From Clostridia bacterium (GTDB lineage: Bacteria > Bacillota > Clostridia > Oscillospirales > Acutalibacteraceae), in the NCBI GenBank assembly GCA_017416285.1, contig JAFQCU010000005.1, forward strand, positions 1 through 45,800: a stretch of 45,800 nt of DNA, written 5' to 3'. The position numbers and the translations under genes are program-made. A model generated the notes under the pieces. The model made no database searches, had not been told where the DNA came from, and saw only the letters and a program-made list of their open reading frames with translations. Below are positions 18,806 to 25,455 of the stretch, in pieces; position 1 is the first letter of the stretch; every line of letters begins with the position of its first letter.

Positions 18806-18881
18806 GCTGGTGTAGCTCAGTTGGTAGAGCAGCTGATTTGTAATCAGCAGGTCGGGGGTTCGAGTCCGTCCACCAGCTCCA
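18806..18881 (+). tRNA. tRNA-Thr (TGT)
   Basis: 76 nt cloverleaf. The acceptor arm is GCTGGTG/CACCAGC, the D-arm includes GTAGCTCAGTTGGTAGAGC, the anticodon stem is GCTGA/TCAGC around loop TTTGTAA (anticodon TGT), the T-arm is GGGGTTCGAGTCCG, and CCA is encoded at 18879-18881. Its last bases are duplicated downstream. Confidence 0.96.
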
Positions 18882-19045
18882 GCGTTTATGAGTCTTTAAT
18901 CGGACTCGAAGCCTGAGAGGGTGAGTGGCGTTAAGAAAACATCACGGTGTGATGTTTTTAGTCACGAAGTGCGAAGCGGCTGTGCCGCAAGCACGGCAGA
19001 CTTTTGAAAAAAGGCTGCGTCCGTCCACCAGCTCCAGCGTTTATG
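18864..19045 (+). repeat. Cassette bounded by a 27-bp duplication of the tRNA-Thr 3' end
   Basis: Bases 18864-18890 (end of tRNA-Thr including CCA, plus the next bases) recur exactly at 19019-19045. The spacing is 155 bp. The spacer has a terminator hairpin, a 10-nt inverse copy of the tRNA T-arm (CGGACTCGAA at 18901-18910) and no coding capacity. This looks like the attL/attR-like trace of an element that uses the tRNA end, or a local duplication that then diverged. Confidence 0.8.
18936..18960 (+). terminator. Hairpin terminator downstream of tRNA-Thr
   Basis: AAAACATCAC / GTGATGTTTTT with a 3-nt loop. It lies inside the duplicated cassette and would separate tRNA-Thr from tRNA-Tyr. Confidence 0.7.
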
Positions 19046-19067: not shown

Positions 19068-19152
19068 GGGAGTGTTCCCGAGTGGCCAAAGGGGGCAGAC
19101 TGTAAATCTGTTGTCTTCGACTTCGGTGGTTCGAATCCACCCGCTCCCACCA
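19068..19152 (+). tRNA. tRNA-Tyr (GTA)
   Basis: 85 nt class II tRNA with a long variable arm. The acceptor is GGGAGTG/CGCTCCC, the anticodon stem CAGA/TCTG is around loop CTGTAAA (anticodon GTA), the T-arm is GGTGGTTCGAATCCACC, and CCA is encoded at 19150-19152. Confidence 0.96.
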
Positions 19153-19329
19153 AAAATCCTCGTAACGTATGTTACGGGGATTTTTACTTTTTCACTATTA
19201 CCTCTTCACTCTTCACTTTTCTCTTAAATACAAGGATTTTTGGGAAGTAAGAAGTAATAGTGAATAGTGAAGAAGTCCACTCTGACGAAGTCGGAATATC
19301 ACTAAATTTAGGTCAAGATGGATTCGAAC
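19150..19329 (+). repeat. Structured dispersed repeat, copy B1
   Basis: Starts on the CCA of tRNA-Tyr. Its first 77 bp (19150-19226) and a 43-bp block (19234-19276) are identical to copy B2 at 25274. It contains a terminator-like hairpin (AAAAATCCTCGTAAC/GTTACGGGGATTTTT, 19152-19185), a long-range pairing between CCAAAAATCC and GGATTTTTGG, inverted TTCACTATTAC-type iterations, and ends in GTCAAGATGGATTCGAAC (19312-19329), an 18-mer also shared with B2. Noncoding. Confidence 0.85.
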
Positions 19330-19808: not shown

Positions 19809-19834
19809 TGGCATCATAATAGTTCGTAACAGCC
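19809..19834 (+). repeat. 26-bp dispersed repeat, copy C1
   Basis: Begins TGGCATCATAATAGTTCGTA and ends ACAGCC. Identical at 25250-25275; a diverged copy is at 27358-27385. It contains the near-palindrome GTTCGTAAC and sits just after a stop codon each time or in the spacer that follows. Confidence 0.8.
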
Positions 19835-19911: not shown

Positions 19912-19943
19912 TTCAATAATTTTTCAATCTTTTGTGGTATAAT
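19912..19943 (+). promoter_or_regulatory. Two-component promoter with tandem response-regulator box
   Basis: TTCAATA (19912-19918) and TTCAATC (19923-19929) start 11 bp apart, and TATAAT follows at 19938-19943. There is no good -35 box: the repeats occupy that region. OmpR-type regulators bind such direct repeats one helical turn apart. The same layout precedes the VTC gene at 21904. Confidence 0.6.
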
Positions 19944-19964
19944 GGTTTGATGGGGAGGTGTCTT

Positions 19965-20648
19965 ATGAGAATTTTGCTCATTGAAGATGAAAAAAGAATG
20001 GCGCAGGCACTTTGCGAAATACTTCGTCTTGAAAAATATGAGGTAGACCATTATTCAAACGGACTTGATGGATTATTTGCAATAGAAAGCAATATTTATG
20101 ATATTGCAATTCTTGACGTTATGCTTCCCGGAATGAACGGGTATGAAATCGTAAGGAAAGCACGCAGTAAAGGCATTGCAACACCAATTTTAATGCTTAC
20201 TGCAAAGGCAGAGCTGGATGATAAGGTTACCGGTCTTGACAGTGGAGCAGATGATTATTTAACAAAACCTTTTATGACCAAAGAACTCCTTGCCCGACTT
20301 CGTGCACTTGGCAGAAGAACACTCGGCATGACGGAGGGCATTCTCTCTTTTGCTGATATTACTCTTGATACAAGCACTCTCACATTATCTTGCACTACCA
20401 ATGGTCAGAGTGTTCGACTCAGCGAAAAGGAATATCGTATTCTTGAATATTTAATTGCAAATAGCGGTCAGATTCTTACTCGTGAACAGTTAGCGGTTAA
20501 AATTTGGGGATTTGAAAGCGATACCGAATATAACAACGTTGAAGTGTATATGTCTTTTACTCGGAAAAAGCTGGCTTTTGTGGAAGCCAAAACTGAAATA
20601 AAGGCGGTTAGGGGCATTGGATACGAATTGAGGTGTAGCGATGTTTAA
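19965..20648 (+). CDS. OmpR/PhoB-family response regulator
   Basis: 227 residues. The receiver domain (1-115) has the acidic pocket Glu7-Asp8, phospho-acceptor Asp51 ('IAILDVMLPG'), Thr79 and the Lys in 'YLTKPF'. The winged-helix domain (about 130-225) has 'LSEKEYRILEYLIANSGQILTREQLAVKIWG'. The start is ATG 19965 after GGGGAGGTG; upstream in-frame starts lie in the promoter. It overlaps the kinase gene by 8 bp. It probably regulates its own promoter and that of the VTC cluster. Confidence 0.95.
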   Translation: MRILLIEDEKRMAQALCEILRLEKYEVDHYSNGLDGLFAIESNIYDIAILDVMLPGMNGYEIVRKARSKGIATPILMLTAKAELDDKVTGLDSGADDYLTKPFMTKELLARLRALGRRTLGMTEGILSFADITLDTSTLTLSCTTNGQSVRLSEKEYRILEYLIANSGQILTREQLAVKIWGFESDTEYNNVEVYMSFTRKKLAFVEAKTEIKAVRGIGYELRCSDV

Positions 20649-21888
20649 AAAATCAAGAAGAAAAATCGTTGCTTCAATTATGTCTATTCTCGTACTTTTA
20701 TGGGTAAGCACGCTTGGCGTAATTTATGCATCAAGTTATTTTGAAATGACAAAACAAAATGAGCAGATGTTAGAGGCACATGCCGAAATGTACGTTTTGC
20801 CGCAATCAATGGGCGAGCTTCAGCCGGAAAGACCTATGCCGGGCGGAAATCCTGCCTTTAAACCCGATTTTGATCCCGAATCGCCTAAATTTAAGCTATC
20901 TACCTTTTATACAGTGGCGGTTTCTGATGATGGAGCTATTTTAGAAATCAAAAACGGTGAGCCTACGGTTTATACAGATGATGCCCTTGGTAAAATGGCA
21001 AAAAATATTATTAAGGATGGCAAAAACACAGGGACATACAGCAATTTGGTTTTTCGCAAGGTGGATAAGGGCGGTTATACACTGGTTGCGTTTATGGATA
21101 ATACCGTTATTAACGAGGGTGCCATAACTCTGTTCAGATATACCCTTATTTTTGGTGCTGTGGCTTTGGTTATATTCTTTTTCCTTGCGGTATTTCTTGC
21201 AAGAAAAATTGTTAATCCTCTTGAAGAAAGCTATCAAAAGCAAAGGCAGTTCATTTCTGATGCGGGTCACGAGCTTAAGACACCGGTATCGGTAGTAAGC
21301 ACCAATGCAGAACTGCTTTCCCGTGAGATTGGCGATAATAAATGGCTTCAAAATATTCAGTATGAAAATGAACGTATGGGAATATTAGTGGGACAGCTTT
21401 TACAGCTTGCCAGAACCGAAACCGTAAAACCACAGATGGAACAACTTGATTTTAGCCGACTTGTTGCGGGTGAAGCGCTTCCGTTTGAGGGTGTTGCCTT
21501 TGAAAAGGGTTTGCTGTTAAATAGTAATATTGCAAGCAATATCAAGGTGGAGGGTAATGCTACACAGCTTAAACAAATTGTTTCGATACTGCTTGATAAT
21601 GCTATTCGCCATAGCACACAAAAAGGCGAGGTTACTTTGTCATTAATTAAAGAACACGGTTATGCAAGGCTTTCGGTGATTAACAAGGGTGATGAAATAT
21701 CTGAAGAACAACGTGAACATATATTTGAACGTTTTTACCGTGTGGATACTGCCCGTAATAGTGAGGATAATCATTACGGTCTTGGGCTTGCCATTGCAAA
21801 AGCGATTACAGATTCCCATAAAGGTAATATTCAGGTGCTATGTTATGATGGATTTGTGGAATTCAGAGCACAAATTCCCGTACTTTAA
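20641..21888 (+). CDS. Sensor histidine kinase, partner of the adjacent regulator
   Basis: 415 residues. One membrane helix lies at about 10-32 and another at about 160-184, with an extracellular sensor region of roughly 125 residues between them. That region is rich in Pro/Glu near residues 55-80 ('ERPMPGGNPAFKPDFDPE'). The linker to the HisKA domain is very short, so a full HAMP domain is absent. The phospho-His is His210 ('DAGHELKTPVSVV'). The N-box is 'LKQIVSILLDNAIRHS' and the G-box 'HYGLGLAIAKAI'. The signal is unknown; an extracytoplasmic cue is expected. Confidence 0.94.
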   Translation: MFKKSRRKIVASIMSILVLLWVSTLGVIYASSYFEMTKQNEQMLEAHAEMYVLPQSMGELQPERPMPGGNPAFKPDFDPESPKFKLSTFYTVAVSDDGAILEIKNGEPTVYTDDALGKMAKNIIKDGKNTGTYSNLVFRKVDKGGYTLVAFMDNTVINEGAITLFRYTLIFGAVALVIFFFLAVFLARKIVNPLEESYQKQRQFISDAGHELKTPVSVVSTNAELLSREIGDNKWLQNIQYENERMGILVGQLLQLARTETVKPQMEQLDFSRLVAGEALPFEGVAFEKGLLLNSNIASNIKVEGNATQLKQIVSILLDNAIRHSTQKGEVTLSLIKEHGYARLSVINKGDEISEEQREHIFERFYRVDTARNSEDNHYGLGLAIAKAITDSHKGNIQVLCYDGFVEFRAQIPVL

Positions 21889-21903
21889 ATAAAATTTAAA
21901 ATT

Positions 21904-21936
21904 TTCAATAAAACTTCAATATTCCTCCTGTACAAT
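21904..21936 (+). promoter_or_regulatory. VTC-cluster promoter with tandem response-regulator box
   Basis: Two copies of TTCAATA (21904-21910 and 21915-21921), 11 bp apart, are followed 9 bp later by TACAAT (21931-21936). The layout is the same as at 19912-19943, which suggests control by the regulator encoded just upstream. Confidence 0.6.
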
Positions 21937-21964
21937 GATTTTATCATATGCAGGAGGTTTTTTT

Positions 21965-22708
21965 ATGGCGTTTCAAACCGTATTTAAAAGATATGAGCTT
22001 AAATATATGCTGACGCTTGACCAAAAGGAAAAAATCCTTACAGCAATGGCACCGTATATGAAGCTTGATAAATACGGCCGAACTACTATTCGAAACCTTT
22101 ATTATGATACGGACACTTATCTTTTAATACGCCGTTCTATTGAAAAACCGGTTTATAAAGAAAAGCTGCGAATTCGAAGCTATAGCAAGGCGACTAATGA
22201 CAGCACTGTTTTTGTGGAGCTTAAAAAGAAATATAAGCATGTGGTGTATAAGCGAAGAATTTCTTTGCCGAATAGTCAGGCAATGGATTGGCTTGCGGGT
22301 GAAAACCATCCTGAAAACTACACGCAAATTGCTAACGAAATTGATTATTTTATGAAATTATACGGTACGCTACATCCAACGGTATTTCTTTCCTATGAAC
22401 GTGAAGCATATTATTCTGATGATGGTTCTGATTTTCGGGTAACCTTTGATGATACAATTCTTTGCCGACAGGAAAATCTGTCGCTTACGGCTGACGTATA
22501 TGGGACACCGATTCTTCCCGAAGGCAAAGTGCTGATGGAAATTAAAAGTAGCGGCGGAATCCCGCTGTGGATGACAAAGGTTTTATCCGAAGAAAAGCTA
22601 TATAAAACACCTTTTTCAAAATATGGAACAGCGTATAAAACGCTTATTTTCCCACAAAATCATACAATAAATTCATATAATATGTTGGAGGTAACTAATA
22701 ATGCTTGA
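21965..22708 (+). CDS. VTC-domain (polyphosphate polymerase-like) protein
   Basis: 247 residues, a single VTC/CYTH-type tunnel domain. Basic and acidic residues expected to line the tunnel are seen: Lys8-Arg9...Glu11...Lys13 ('FKRYELKY'), Lys67-Arg69-Arg71 ('KLRIRSY'), Glu85...Lys87 ('FVELKKK'), Lys96-Arg97-Arg98, and a C-terminal acidic-basic pair in 'LMEIKSSGGIPLWM'. Eukaryotic VTC4 makes polyphosphate from ATP with this fold; bacterial relatives are mostly untested. The start is ATG 21965, 7 nt after AGGAGG. It overlaps the DUF4956 gene by 8 bp. Activity is inferred. Confidence 0.88.
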   Translation: MAFQTVFKRYELKYMLTLDQKEKILTAMAPYMKLDKYGRTTIRNLYYDTDTYLLIRRSIEKPVYKEKLRIRSYSKATNDSTVFVELKKKYKHVVYKRRISLPNSQAMDWLAGENHPENYTQIANEIDYFMKLYGTLHPTVFLSYEREAYYSDDGSDFRVTFDDTILCRQENLSLTADVYGTPILPEGKVLMEIKSSGGIPLWMTKVLSEEKLYKTPFSKYGTAYKTLIFPQNHTINSYNMLEVTNNA

Positions 22709-23396
22709 AAAATTATTTAAAGGATTATTTGATACGGATTTAACTAATGTTATCAGCGTGACTGATTTTCTGCTTTGCCTAGGTGTATCTCTTGTAATTG
22801 GTCTTTTAATGGCGTTTGCTTATATGTATCGCACACGCTACACAAAGAGCTTTGTTGTAACGTTAGCTTTGCTTCCGGCAGTAGTTTGTGTGGTTATTAT
22901 GATGGTAAACGGCAACGTTGGAACCGGCGTTGCGGTAGCCGGTGCGTTTAGCCTTGTGCGTTTTCGCAGTGTCCCCGGTACGGCAAAAGAAATTTGCACT
23001 CTGTTTTTGGCAATGGGCGCAGGGCTTATAGCCGGTATGGGATATCTTGGCTTTGCAGTATTATTTGCGGTGGTTATGTGCGTAGTTTTTGTTATCTATA
23101 ATCGTTTGGATTTCGGAACAAAGAAAAATGCAGCGATATTTAAAACCTTTACTATTACTATCCCCGAAGATTTAGATTATTCAGGTGTTTTTGATGATAT
23201 TTTTTCCGACTACACAGCCTCTCACGACCTTGTGCGTGTTAAAAGTACAAATATGGGAAGTATGTTCAAGCTTACATATAATGTAATGCTTCGTGATGCC
23301 GCCCGTGAAAAGGAAATGATTGATAAAATTCGCCAAAGAAACGGAAATCTTGAAATTGCTGTGTCTAAACAAGAAACTGCCGGCACAGAATTGTAA
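22701..23396 (+). CDS. DUF4956 membrane protein
   Basis: 231 residues with four membrane helices in the first 135 residues (about 20-43, 50-70, 97-114 and 116-134). The conserved loop is 'VAVAGAFSLVRFRSVPGTAKEI'. A soluble tail of about 90 residues ('AIFKTFTITIPEDLDYSGVFDDI') resembles a small ferredoxin-like/ACT fold. DUF4956 genes are commonly next to VTC-domain genes in Firmicutes, so a membrane partner or product exporter is plausible. The substrate is unknown. Confidence 0.88.
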   Translation: MLEKLFKGLFDTDLTNVISVTDFLLCLGVSLVIGLLMAFAYMYRTRYTKSFVVTLALLPAVVCVVIMMVNGNVGTGVAVAGAFSLVRFRSVPGTAKEICTLFLAMGAGLIAGMGYLGFAVLFAVVMCVVFVIYNRLDFGTKKNAAIFKTFTITIPEDLDYSGVFDDIFSDYTASHDLVRVKSTNMGSMFKLTYNVMLRDAAREKEMIDKIRQRNGNLEIAVSKQETAGTEL

Positions 23397-23409
23397 TGGG
23401 AGGGCTTAT

Positions 23410-25188
23410 ATGAAAAAAATATTATCAATCTTATTGGTTTTTGCTTTTTTGCTTTCAGGTTGCAGTTCTAAGGAAAAATTAAACAATGAAGATTTAAACG
23501 ATAGTGCCAAACCTTTCGAGGTGGATTTTTCAAAAACGGATACGGATATGTTTACCGAACGTGATAACGAAATTGAGTATGACAAAAGCAATGCGGTCAC
23601 CATTAAGCTTAATGGGGCTTCGGCAACTGCAAGCTCTGACAGTGTTAAAATATCCGGCTCACGGGTTACTATTACCGAAGAAGCAACCTATGTTATTTCT
23701 GGTAGCCTAACCGATGGCATGCTGGTTGTTAATGCAAAAGACACAGCCAAATTACAGCTCGTTTTTGACGGTGTAAACATTACAAGCAAGACCTCTGCCG
23801 CATTGTATATTTTACAAGCAGATAAAGTGTTTGTAACACTGGCTGACAAAACCGATAATACACTTGCTAACGGTGGCAGCTTTACCGCAATAGATGATAA
23901 TAATATTGATGCAGCTCTGTTTTCAAAGCAAGATTTAACAATGAACGGAACAGGCTCTTTGACAGTAACTTCACCGGCAGGACACGGTATAGTCTGTAAG
24001 GATGATTTTGTGATAACGGGTGGGACCTATGTGGTGAAGAGCGCATCCCACAGTTTTGATGCAAATGATAGCGTCAGAATTGCAAATGCCAAACTTACTG
24101 TTGATGCCGGTAAGGACGCCATACACGTTGAAAATAGCGACGAAGCCGACAAGGGCTTTGTTTATATCACAAGCGGGACGATTAAGGCCGAGGCCGAGGG
24201 CGACGGAATTGCTGCAAGCGCATATATGCAGATAGCCGGAGGAACGATAGATTTACTTGTCGGCGGCGGAAGTGAAAACGGCACAAAAGCATCATCGGGC
24301 AATTATGGCGGATTTATGGGGGGCAGACCCGGTGGAATGCGCCCCGGCGGCAATCAAGATTTTGTGACAGAGGAAGATACCGTTAGTATGAAGGGACTGA
24401 AGGCCGCAAGCGGAATACTTATTTCAGGCGGAGATATTACCATTAATTCGGCAGACGATTCTATACATTCAGATTCTTCGCTTACCATTAACGGCGGAAA
24501 CTTTATTATTGCATCGGGTGATGATGCAATTCACGCTGAGGATACTTTGACAGTTACCGCAGGCGAGATTGATATTTCTGAAAGTTACGAAGGGCTTGAA
24601 GCTCTGCACATAGACGTGCAGGGCGGAAATATCAAGTTAAAAGCAAGTGATGACGGACTAAATGCCGCAGGCGGTACGGACCAAAGTGGTATAGTAGGGG
24701 GCCGTGATGGAATGTTTGGCGGCTTTGGCGGCAGACCGGGTGGCGGTATGTCATCTAATTCAAATGGCAGTATCAAAATATCCGGCGGCACGCTTTATAT
24801 TAATTCTTCAGGTGACGGCTTAGATGCAAACGGCACCTTGGAAATCAGCGGCGGTTATACCGTAGTGGTTGGACCAACGCAAGGCGATACCGCAACGCTT
24901 GACTATGATAAGAGTGGTATTATTACAGGGGGAACCTTTATAGGAACAGGTGCTCAGGGTATGGCTCAAAGCTTTAGCGATTCCGAGCAAGGCGTTATAG
25001 CTATAAGCGTTGGTAATCAAAGCGCCGGCACAAAGATTGTATTAAAAAATAAAAGTGGAAAAACAATTATTGAGCATTCACCCGAACTTAATTTTGCAGT
25101 TGTGATTCTCTCAAGTCCCGATATCAAAAAGGGCGAAACCTATACGGTTACCGTTGGCTCTGAATCTGGAAAATTTGAGGCAAATTAA
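23410..25188 (+). CDS. Cthe_2159-like beta-helix surface lipoprotein
   Basis: 592 residues. Lipobox 'LLSGC' gives lipidated Cys18. The rest is a repeating right-handed beta-helix with rungs such as 'ITINSADDSIHSDSSLTINGGNFIIASGDDAIHAEDTLTVTAG', rich in Asp/Asn turns likely to bind calcium. Two Gly/Pro-rich loops ('GGFMGGRPGGMRPGG' and 'GGFGGRPGGGM') break the helix. The Cthe_2159 family binds acidic polysaccharides such as polygalacturonate. The start is ATG 23410 after GGGAGGG. It ends the VTC-DUF4956 operon. Its ligand here is unproven. Confidence 0.85.
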   Translation: MKKILSILLVFAFLLSGCSSKEKLNNEDLNDSAKPFEVDFSKTDTDMFTERDNEIEYDKSNAVTIKLNGASATASSDSVKISGSRVTITEEATYVISGSLTDGMLVVNAKDTAKLQLVFDGVNITSKTSAALYILQADKVFVTLADKTDNTLANGGSFTAIDDNNIDAALFSKQDLTMNGTGSLTVTSPAGHGIVCKDDFVITGGTYVVKSASHSFDANDSVRIANAKLTVDAGKDAIHVENSDEADKGFVYITSGTIKAEAEGDGIAASAYMQIAGGTIDLLVGGGSENGTKASSGNYGGFMGGRPGGMRPGGNQDFVTEEDTVSMKGLKAASGILISGGDITINSADDSIHSDSSLTINGGNFIIASGDDAIHAEDTLTVTAGEIDISESYEGLEALHIDVQGGNIKLKASDDGLNAAGGTDQSGIVGGRDGMFGGFGGRPGGGMSSNSNGSIKISGGTLYINSSGDGLDANGTLEISGGYTVVVGPTQGDTATLDYDKSGIITGGTFIGTGAQGMAQSFSDSEQGVIAISVGNQSAGTKIVLKNKSGKTIIEHSPELNFAVVILSSPDIKKGETYTVTVGSESGKFEAN

Positions 25189-25249: not shown

Positions 25250-25275
25250 TGGCATCATAATAGTTCGTAACAGCC
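25250..25275 (+). repeat. 26-bp dispersed repeat, copy C2
   Basis: Identical to 19809-19834. Here it abuts repeat B2 directly. The 322-bp gap 25189-25510 holds C2, B2 and a terminator, and no gene. Confidence 0.8.
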
Positions 25276-25455
25276 AAAAATCCTCGTAACGTATGTTACG
25301 GGGATTTTTACTTTTTCACTATTACCTCTTCACTCTTCACTTTTCTCTTATATACTCGGATTTTTGGGAAGTAAGAAGTAATAGTGAATAGTGAAGAAGT
25401 TCGGTGTATGCTTCGCATACGAAATATAAAAATCTCCGTCAAGATGGATTCGAAC
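25274..25455 (+). repeat. Structured dispersed repeat, copy B2
   Basis: The 77-bp block 25274-25350 and the 43-bp block 25358-25400 match B1 exactly, as does the terminal GTCAAGATGGATTCGAAC (25438-25455). The variable part between 25401 and 25437 holds a different hairpin (GTATGCTTCGCATAC). It contains the same head hairpin, which may terminate the VTC operon. Confidence 0.85.

Follow-up and report, generated by a model that had tools for sequence, protein, structure and literature searches.

Results

The window, a stretch of 45,800 nucleotides from a Clostridia bacterium, carries a two-component system followed on the same strand by three genes, which encode a VTC-domain enzyme, a DUF4956 membrane protein and a Cthe_2159 lipoprotein:

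19965..20648, + strand, OmpR/PhoB-type response regulator (Pfam PF00072 and PF00486)
20641..21888, + strand, sensor histidine kinase (Pfam PF00512 and PF02518)
20800..20880, + strand, Pro/Gly-rich extracytoplasmic segment of the kinase (peak P+G density 0.38; variable among orthologues)
21965..22708, + strand, VTC-domain protein, polyphosphate polymerase-like tunnel enzyme (PF09359, 146 bits, cut-off 23)
22701..23396, + strand, DUF4956 membrane protein, remote MgtC homologue (PF16316; hhalign 98.2%)
23410..25188, + strand, Cthe_2159 beta-helix lipoprotein with GGRPGG-rich loops (PF14262, 314 bits; phmmer matches to 4peu/4phb)

The source bacterium is related to uncultured gut Clostridia. Receiver and winged-helix domains, together with a cognate kinase, place the regulator among the OmpR/PhoB two-component systems; of the 98 regulator models, none of the 25 listed matched it above its cut-off. 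By inspection, the kinase probably crosses the membrane twice, with ~130 extracytoplasmic residues forming a domain between the crossings. The P+G comparison set 41 kinases against 20 background kinases, and its p-value overstates independence because members of the same groups are included. A two-component pair lies near VTC in 30 of 53 loci with a Cthe_2159 protein vs 11 of 67 without one.

The VTC Pfam scan used an open reading frame from 21935, a start that would overlap the -10 box; the ATG at 21965 follows the end of an AGGAGG Shine-Dalgarno sequence by 7 bp. A direct phmmer search of the VTC and DUF4956 proteins against the PDB gave chance-level matches only, and a VTC profile recovered yeast Vtc4. 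The active-site comparison covers eight tunnel residues (R69, R71, R146, R158, E192, K194, S218 and K219), which are invariant in 13 sequences, are conserved at 1.00 in 140 and align with Vtc4 (3g3q) in the profile match. We take their counterparts to be R264, R266, R361, R373, E426, K428, S457 and K458; K13, outside the aligned stretch, is presumably the counterpart of K200. Models for PPK1 and PPK2 found no match in the 85%-complete genome, so that VTC could be the enzyme that makes polyphosphate there. Homology to Vtc4 does not in itself fix the product.

VTC is present in 95 of 200 family genomes. We fetched 120 VTC loci besides that of the window, leaving out the seven lowest-scoring matches, several of them gene fragments; among the 121 analysed, L084 yielded no VTC gene on scanning. 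The common clustering of VTC and DUF4956 genes, stated in the preliminary description, was borne out, with DUF4956 at most two genes away in 118 of 120 VTC loci.

Profile comparison relates DUF4956 to MgtC over 205 columns (98.2%, E 4.3e-14; column-reversed control 0.4%). Only the DUF4956 model matches the window protein, the MgtC domain staying below its Pfam cut-off, as it does for the VTC-adjacent DUF4956 proteins of genomes G053 and G020 (E 2.4e-4 and 4.9e-4). A DUF4956 profile search of the PDB returned nothing. A 2025 paper had already stated the MgtC resemblance for the Streptococcus counterpart. The Cthe_2159 protein carries the lipobox LLSGC.

The regulatory elements lie upstream of the regulator and between the kinase and VTC genes:

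19912..19929, + strand, regulator-promoter box TTCAATA-N4-TTCAATC, TTCAATAATTTTTCAATC (direct repeat replacing the -35 box, read from the sequence)
19938..19943, + strand, regulator-promoter -10 box TATAAT (read from the sequence; similar spacing in relatives)
21904..21921, + strand, VTC-promoter box TTCAATA-N4-TTCAATA, TTCAATAAAACTTCAATA (direct repeat, read from the sequence)
21931..21936, + strand, VTC-promoter -10 box TACAAT (read from the sequence; conserved in relatives)
21924..21957, + strand, terminator-like hairpin with arms 21924-21932 and 21949-21957, followed by 7 T (covariation, energies and specificity to after-kinase sites)
21952..21957, + strand, VTC Shine-Dalgarno sequence AGGAGG (read from the sequence)

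Paired TTCAAT(A/C) copies standing 8-9 bp before the -10 box in place of a -35 box had been described at both promoters, and we find them so: the half-sites are 11 bp apart at each, the gap to the -10 box is 8 bp at the regulator promoter and 9 bp at the VTC promoter, and inspection revealed no TTGACA-like -35 box at 17-bp spacing at either. A direct repeat in place of the -35 box, at a regulator's own and at its predicted target promoter, is what an OmpR/PhoB-type activator would be expected to use. In the window alone the pattern with two mismatches is nothing unusual (5 observed vs 3.5 expected). The 1.45-Mb genome has only two exact matches to TTCAATM-N4-TTCAATM, one before the regulator gene and one before VTC. 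By eye, none of the eight one-mismatch boxes in this genome has TANNAT 8-10 bp downstream, and no further regulated gene emerged there as a clear candidate.

A search for the box at orthologous loci, named beforehand as a check that could refute the link, found it conserved. With at most one mismatch it lies 3' of the kinase gene in 23/23 loci in which VTC is next after the orthologous kinase, in 6 of 14 in which VTC is not next, and 5' of the regulator gene in 26/35 relatives. Some loci represent one genome twice, and the box and hairpin counts take each such pair once; L154 and L157 are close kin. Across 200 family genomes, box plus -10 box gave 22 sites vs 2 with a reversed control, and 19 of the 22 were assigned to regulator, VTC or beta-helix promoters. 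This shared, conserved box upholds the earlier proposal that the two-component system is tied to the VTC operon. No box was seen 5' of the regulator in L184 and L186; L156 has only one half of it, together with a good -10 box, and L172 has it with two mismatches. Other box-bearing genes in relatives include an FtsX/MacB-type ABC transporter, CotH-type operons, other beta-helix proteins and a glycosyltransferase, one box lying upstream of GT2-GtrA in L274; in L159, L165, L169 and L183 the regulator lies behind the ABC operon and the box precedes that operon. In VTC loci outside the orthologous systems no convincing TTCAAT box was seen. By eye, several non-orthologous VTC loci carry a different, AAGGTTCATTTAGGGTT-like repeat.

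Within the hairpin, the 5' arm overlaps the VTC -10 box and the 3' arm contains the VTC Shine-Dalgarno sequence. In an alignment of 27 sequences, a hand-picked part of the loci whose box follows the kinase or precedes VTC, 97.8% of cells are paired and 5 of the 10 pairs show changes on both sides; on either measure 0/500 shuffles scored as high, and the further pair types were matched by 33 of 500. By a strict count (stem score of at least 8 and at least 4 T), the hairpin is present at 34 of 37 after-kinase sites vs 0/28 regulator and 0/6 ABC promoters. Read-through RNA is predicted to fold at -19.0 kcal/mol (z -4.6) and RNA from the assumed VTC start at -2.4; in L218 the RNA with the 5' arm folds at -21.6 (z -2.6), the fragment without it has z -0.2, and the L219 hairpin has z -5.0. 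A terminator scan limited to loops of at most 8 nt did not list the hairpin, whose loop is 16 nt by the gapless stem, and the terminator-like sites in that scan were no commoner than in shuffles. Loci L186-L188 carry the box 3' of the kinase gene but no comparable hairpin. In four CotH-type loci (L166, L171, L172 and L184) the VTC Shine-Dalgarno site lies past the hairpin, so masking of the ribosome site is not general.

Direct repeats flank the cassette:

19809..19834, + strand, 26-bp direct repeat, left copy
25250..25275, + strand, 26-bp direct repeat, right copy
19150..19276, + strand, 127-bp repeat, first copy, beginning at the 3' end of tRNA-Tyr
25274..25400, + strand, 127-bp repeat, second copy, 98% identical

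Strong as these repeats are in the window, we set aside a mobile cassette: the 15 checkable relatives showed no flank repeats longer than 12 bp, and the 127-bp repeat has six further partial or diverged matches elsewhere in the genome.

Discussion

We propose, with a probability of about two in three, that the locus is a self-contained sensing-and-response cassette, in which a two-component system activates its own and the VTC promoter, a hairpin keeps the two operons apart and the output would, more tentatively, be a surface polymer. The kinase would detect an extracellular signal, and the phosphorylated PhoB-like regulator would bind the conserved 7-4-7 repeat at the place of the -35 box and thereby switch on both promoters. 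The hairpin would divide the regulator-kinase operon from the VTC operon: with its layout and covariation, transcripts reading through from the former are predicted to be terminated or to have their ribosome site hidden, so that VTC should need its own promoter. By the usual spacing from the -10 box, RNA from that promoter would start inside the loop, lack the 5' arm and be translatable. Three proteins would form the output: a VTC tunnel enzyme that retains the active-site residues compared, a membrane protein resembling MgtC and a beta-helix lipoprotein that is exported. At somewhat less than even odds, we suggest that these three products synthesise, transport or anchor an anionic polymer of the cell surface or contribute to surface-glycan assembly. 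The evidence tying DUF4956 and CotH to polysaccharide stems from a different genus.

There is nearly an even chance that the hairpin is a mere intrinsic terminator of the regulator-kinase operon, its overlap with promoter and ribosome site reflecting compactness without regulatory effect. Hairpin and T-run are kept in the four CotH-type loci despite their separate Shine-Dalgarno site, and in L218-L220 and L070 despite a different stem sequence, as simple termination would have it; however, the 3' arm is itself the ribosome site, with the -10 box at the 5' arm, in the window as in most of the close relatives. Termination and masking alike predict no VTC expression from read-through. As for the product, VTC, rather than polymerising polyphosphate, could be a tunnel enzyme that uses another triphosphate or a glycan precursor on behalf of a surface polysaccharide. 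We regard this as doubtful: the company that VTC, DUF4956 and CotH keep with Pel operons (in the available text of PMC7112168), the Streptococcus intermedius mutants in two of the three genes, altered in Pel and aggregation (in the portion of PMC12345266 at hand), and the box before GT2-GtrA in L274 speak for it, but all eight residues in the Vtc4 comparison are retained and the PPK1 and PPK2 models lack a match in the 85%-complete genome. Less likely still, the system would answer damage to the cell envelope or antimicrobial peptides, with the polymer genes as one output beside an exporter-like ABC transporter. In some relatives the two-component pair does share its box with an ATPase and an FtsX/MacB-type permease, and the NCBIfam model that fits this ATPase best, though below cut-off, is a bacteriocin-export ATPase; yet the window genome has a weak 104-residue permease match only, and among the 23 kinase-then-VTC loci the transporter stands beside the regulator in L169 only.

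Returning to the sensing-and-response cassette, one could push it further, to a version that we consider rather unlikely: box, -10 box, terminator and Shine-Dalgarno sequence, fused in ~60 bp, would restrict translation of the effector operon to RNA started by the regulator; the Pro/Gly-rich sensor would read the operon's own surface beta-helix protein or polymer in a closed loop; and the VTC and MgtC-like pair would export polyphosphate or a related polymer in many surface contexts, Pel being one.

The preliminary description had called the whole system undescribed as a functional unit. Within the literature searched this holds for the kinase-linked unit and fails for the VTC-DUF4956 core. 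The promoter-overlapping hairpin, the DUF4956-MgtC relation, the other box-bearing targets and the flanking direct repeats were absent from that description. VTC-DUF4956 pairs are common, and our literature search found no paper showing their product; a defined regulator, a box and a target list offer a handle on both signal and product. The fused promoter, terminator and ribosome site would act as a compact read-through filter.

Among known systems, the yeast VTC complex, which includes Vtc1 and SPX features, shares the tunnel domain and the compared catalytic residues of Vtc4 (3g3q), whereas the 247-residue window protein is the VTC domain alone and its partner is MgtC-like, not Vtc1-like. 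With the MgtC family (PF02308), DUF4956 shares a profile match that includes the C-terminal domain; it differs in staying below the MgtC cut-off and in its own invariant GA.S.VRFR motif. Overlap of promoter and terminator is familiar from E. coli ampC/frd. For the hairpin we propose a likeness to late-promoter control of T4 I-TevI, where, in the available part of PMC2988022, upstream-started RNA masks the ribosome site and internal-promoter RNA does not. Here the 5' arm would lie upstream of the VTC RNA start predicted from the -10 position; the differences are that the operon is chromosomal, that its promoter is of the regulator type and that a T-run may contribute termination.

The closest gene set is the VTC-DUF4956-CotH accessory group beside Gram-positive Pel operons, known from the accessible sections of PMC7112168. 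In S. intermedius (SIR_1592-1594), mutants in two of these three genes alter Pel level and aggregation, and the arrangement is reported, in the accessible sections of PMC12345266, not to have been detected outside Pel loci; read together, these sections suggest that SIR_1592 is the DUF4956 protein. PelG, the pel gene searched, had no match in the 85%-complete window genome, and among the 200 family genomes it was above cut-off in 7 and matched at any level in 15; G131 (L066/L171), outside these 15, has VTC-DUF4956-CotH. The window shares with the Pel accessory genes a VTC-DUF4956 pair adjoining an exported third protein, but its set goes with a two-component system and boxes and has Cthe_2159 instead of CotH. 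Finally, the boxes recall direct-repeat promoters of the PhoB/PhoP type: the geometry for Mycobacterium PhoP, in the consulted extract of PMC4832192, is likewise 7-bp repeats and a 4-bp spacer (7-4-7). The window boxes sit at the place of the -35 box and are set apart by their own sequence, TTCAATM.

The box in its own genome and in orthologous loci

The preliminary description had placed TTCAATM-N4-TTCAATM boxes in the response regulator and VTC promoters (19912-19929 and 21904-21921); direct reading confirmed both, with their 11-bp period and gaps of 8 and 9 bp to TATAAT and TACAAT, as well as the identities named for all five cassette genes. Two-mismatch matches within the window alone are unremarkable, since 5 were found vs 3.5 expected; in the full 1.45-Mb assembly (37 contigs, 85% complete), there is no exact match besides these two.

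Using the kinase as query among named genomes, we collected 45 loci, 39 of them with a kinase above 250 bits in the scan. The near relatives are uncultured Clostridia whose records mostly bear the name Oscillospiraceae or Clostridia; many of these titles point to the guts of ruminants, goats and deer among them. With one mismatch permitted, the box lies directly 3' of the kinase in 29 of the 37 loci with enough sequence. It follows the kinase in all 23 loci where VTC comes next, and in 6/14 where it does not. In two of these six (L152, L155), the contig stops shortly past a visible VTC start; in L160, a different gene intervenes; and in L186-L188, with kinases 40-41% identical, the box precedes a long ORF (770 to 784 codons). 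Where kinase and VTC lie apart (L189), the box stands immediately before the VTC start.

Upstream of the regulator, the box was found in 26/35 loci; the nine others include L168, whose one-mismatch box the script passed over. The L172 regulator has a box with two mismatches and that of L156 half a box; none was found upstream of the regulator in L184 and L186. Five loci (L156, L159, L165, L169, and L183) have an ABC-transporter operon ahead of the regulator; in all of them but L156, a box precedes that operon, deviating at 0 to 2 positions, always the seventh base of a repeat. The box thus mostly goes with the leading gene of the operon, whichever it is, that contains the two-component system.

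An FtsX/MacB-type permease and ATPase operon with the same box was also seen upstream of the regulator in L155, L159, L165, L169, L175, and L183 (Pfam was tested in L155). A permease fragment in L164 has a Met/Pro/Gly-rich stretch resembling those in the sensor and lipoprotein.

Specificity across the family

A search of 200 family genomes for the box with a -10-like hexamer returned 22 sites in 15 genomes vs 2 for the reversed control. Nineteen were assigned upstream of a regulator gene, a VTC gene, or one for a Cthe_2159/beta-helix protein; the L218 protein counts as a beta-helix only through a sub-cut-off Pfam match. The exceptions are a site after an unrelated kinase (G057), one not placed at a regulator, VTC, or beta-helix gene (G162), and a complete regulator-type promoter with box before a small unrelated ORF adjoining a transposase-like gene (G075, L221:1076), possibly a detached promoter. 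Comparison between genomes supports well a wiring in which the two-component system would act on the box-bearing promoters, with a probability of about 0.85.

Separately, L274 holds an array of three kinase genes with four TTCAAT boxes, one preceding a GT2-GtrA glycosyltransferase gene.

Genomic context and origin of the cassette

VTC is present in 95/200 family genomes. Among 120 VTC loci, DUF4956 lies within two genes in 118, Cthe_2159 is near in 53, and a full two-component pair in 41. The pair is commoner with Cthe_2159 (30/53) than without (11/67; Fisher p 6e-6, loci not independent). Several VTC-adjacent pairs are non-orthologous to that of the window and oriented divergently from VTC, and the sequence separating them carries different repeats, so the coupling probably arose more than once. 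Non-orthologous two-component systems stand beside VTC in L042, L038, L039, and L046, whose VTC promoters share, by eye only, a AAGGTTCATTTAGGGTT-like repeat. Sensor segments rich in P/G, at a density of 0.33 or more, were counted in 23/37 orthologous kinases and in 20/41 non-orthologous kinases of VTC loci vs 0/20 other kinases (none of these sets independent).

Within the genus, a kinase of at least 70% identity occurs in 7/61 genomes, this one included, plus one cut-off copy. Nested direct repeats surround the cassette beside tRNA-Tyr:

19809-19834 and 25250-25275, 26-bp direct repeat bracketing the cassette
19150-19276 and 25274-25400, 127-bp repeat, the first copy beginning at the tRNA-Tyr 3' end

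The 25-base core of the shorter repeat has no further copy in this genome at up to 3 mismatches, and the flank repeats were not seen in the 15 relatives checked. The patchy distribution and the repeats, which look like an insertion or duplication scar, suggest that the cassette was acquired or duplicated at a tRNA site. Just before tRNA-Tyr, 27 bp covering the 3' end of tRNA-Thr and the sequence following it are also perfectly repeated (18864-18890, 19019-19045).

Effector proteins

The VTC residues that align with eight active-site residues of Vtc4 show no variation among 13 sequences and are conserved at 1.00 across an alignment of 140 homologues, and the 13-sequence profile matches Vtc4 in the PDB (E 3e-8). 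DUF4956 aligned with the MgtC profile over 205 columns, scoring 98.2% in hhalign (reversed control, 0.4%); the Pfam MgtC model alone gave sub-cut-off matches to VTC-adjoining DUF4956 proteins in G053 and G020. This relationship is already published and not new: a 2025 mBio article describes the S. intermedius counterpart as MgtC plus ACT (PMC12345266). Cthe_2159 proteins are beta-helices with reported cellulose and polygalacturonate binding (PMC6712302). PPK1 and PPK2 models had no match in this genome, nor was PelG found there (85% complete); PelG exceeded the cut-off in 7/200 genomes, all with VTC. It is plausible, if tentative, that the cassette synthesises or exports a putative polymer.

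In L166, L171, L172, and L184, VTC-DUF4956-CotH takes the place of VTC-DUF4956-Cthe_2159 downstream of the same two-component system and composite promoter; the effector operon is exchanged behind a retained control element.

A composite promoter-hairpin element

Where it follows the kinase, though not where it precedes the regulator, the box continues into CCTCCTG-TACAAT...CAGGAGG-TTTTTTT-ATG, a hairpin whose left arm extends into the -10 and whose right arm doubles as the Shine-Dalgarno sequence. An alignment of 27 sequences, the window plus 26 relatives picked by hand, showed pairing in 97.8% of cells and changes on both sides in 5/10 pairs; no shuffle matched either value, further pair types were matched by 33/500, and slid control versions fell to 35-61% pairing. 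Relatives whose targets differ retain this layout although their stems are quite unlike it in sequence, for instance CCTTCTCTGT/ACAGAGAAGG in L218 and CCTCATCCGTT/AACGGATGAGG in L219. Under a strict criterion (stem score at least 8, at least 4 T), hairpins were counted at 34/37 after-kinase sites, L186-L188 failing, and at 0/28 regulator and 0/6 ABC promoters; the looser script threshold of 6 gave 34, 8, and 0.

The predicted read-through RNA folds at -19.0 kcal/mol (z -4.6) in the window and at -29.4 (z -6.4) in L162. If it starts at the assumed position 21943, the RNA is essentially unfolded; the regulator leader folds ordinarily (z -0.1). The hairpin is likely to act as a terminator. That it masks the ribosome site in the window's subgroup is an evenly balanced prediction, and a pure masking role is disfavoured because the Shine-Dalgarno site is separate from the hairpin in the four CotH-type loci. 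A precedent for the composite element is T4 I-TevI (PMC2988022).
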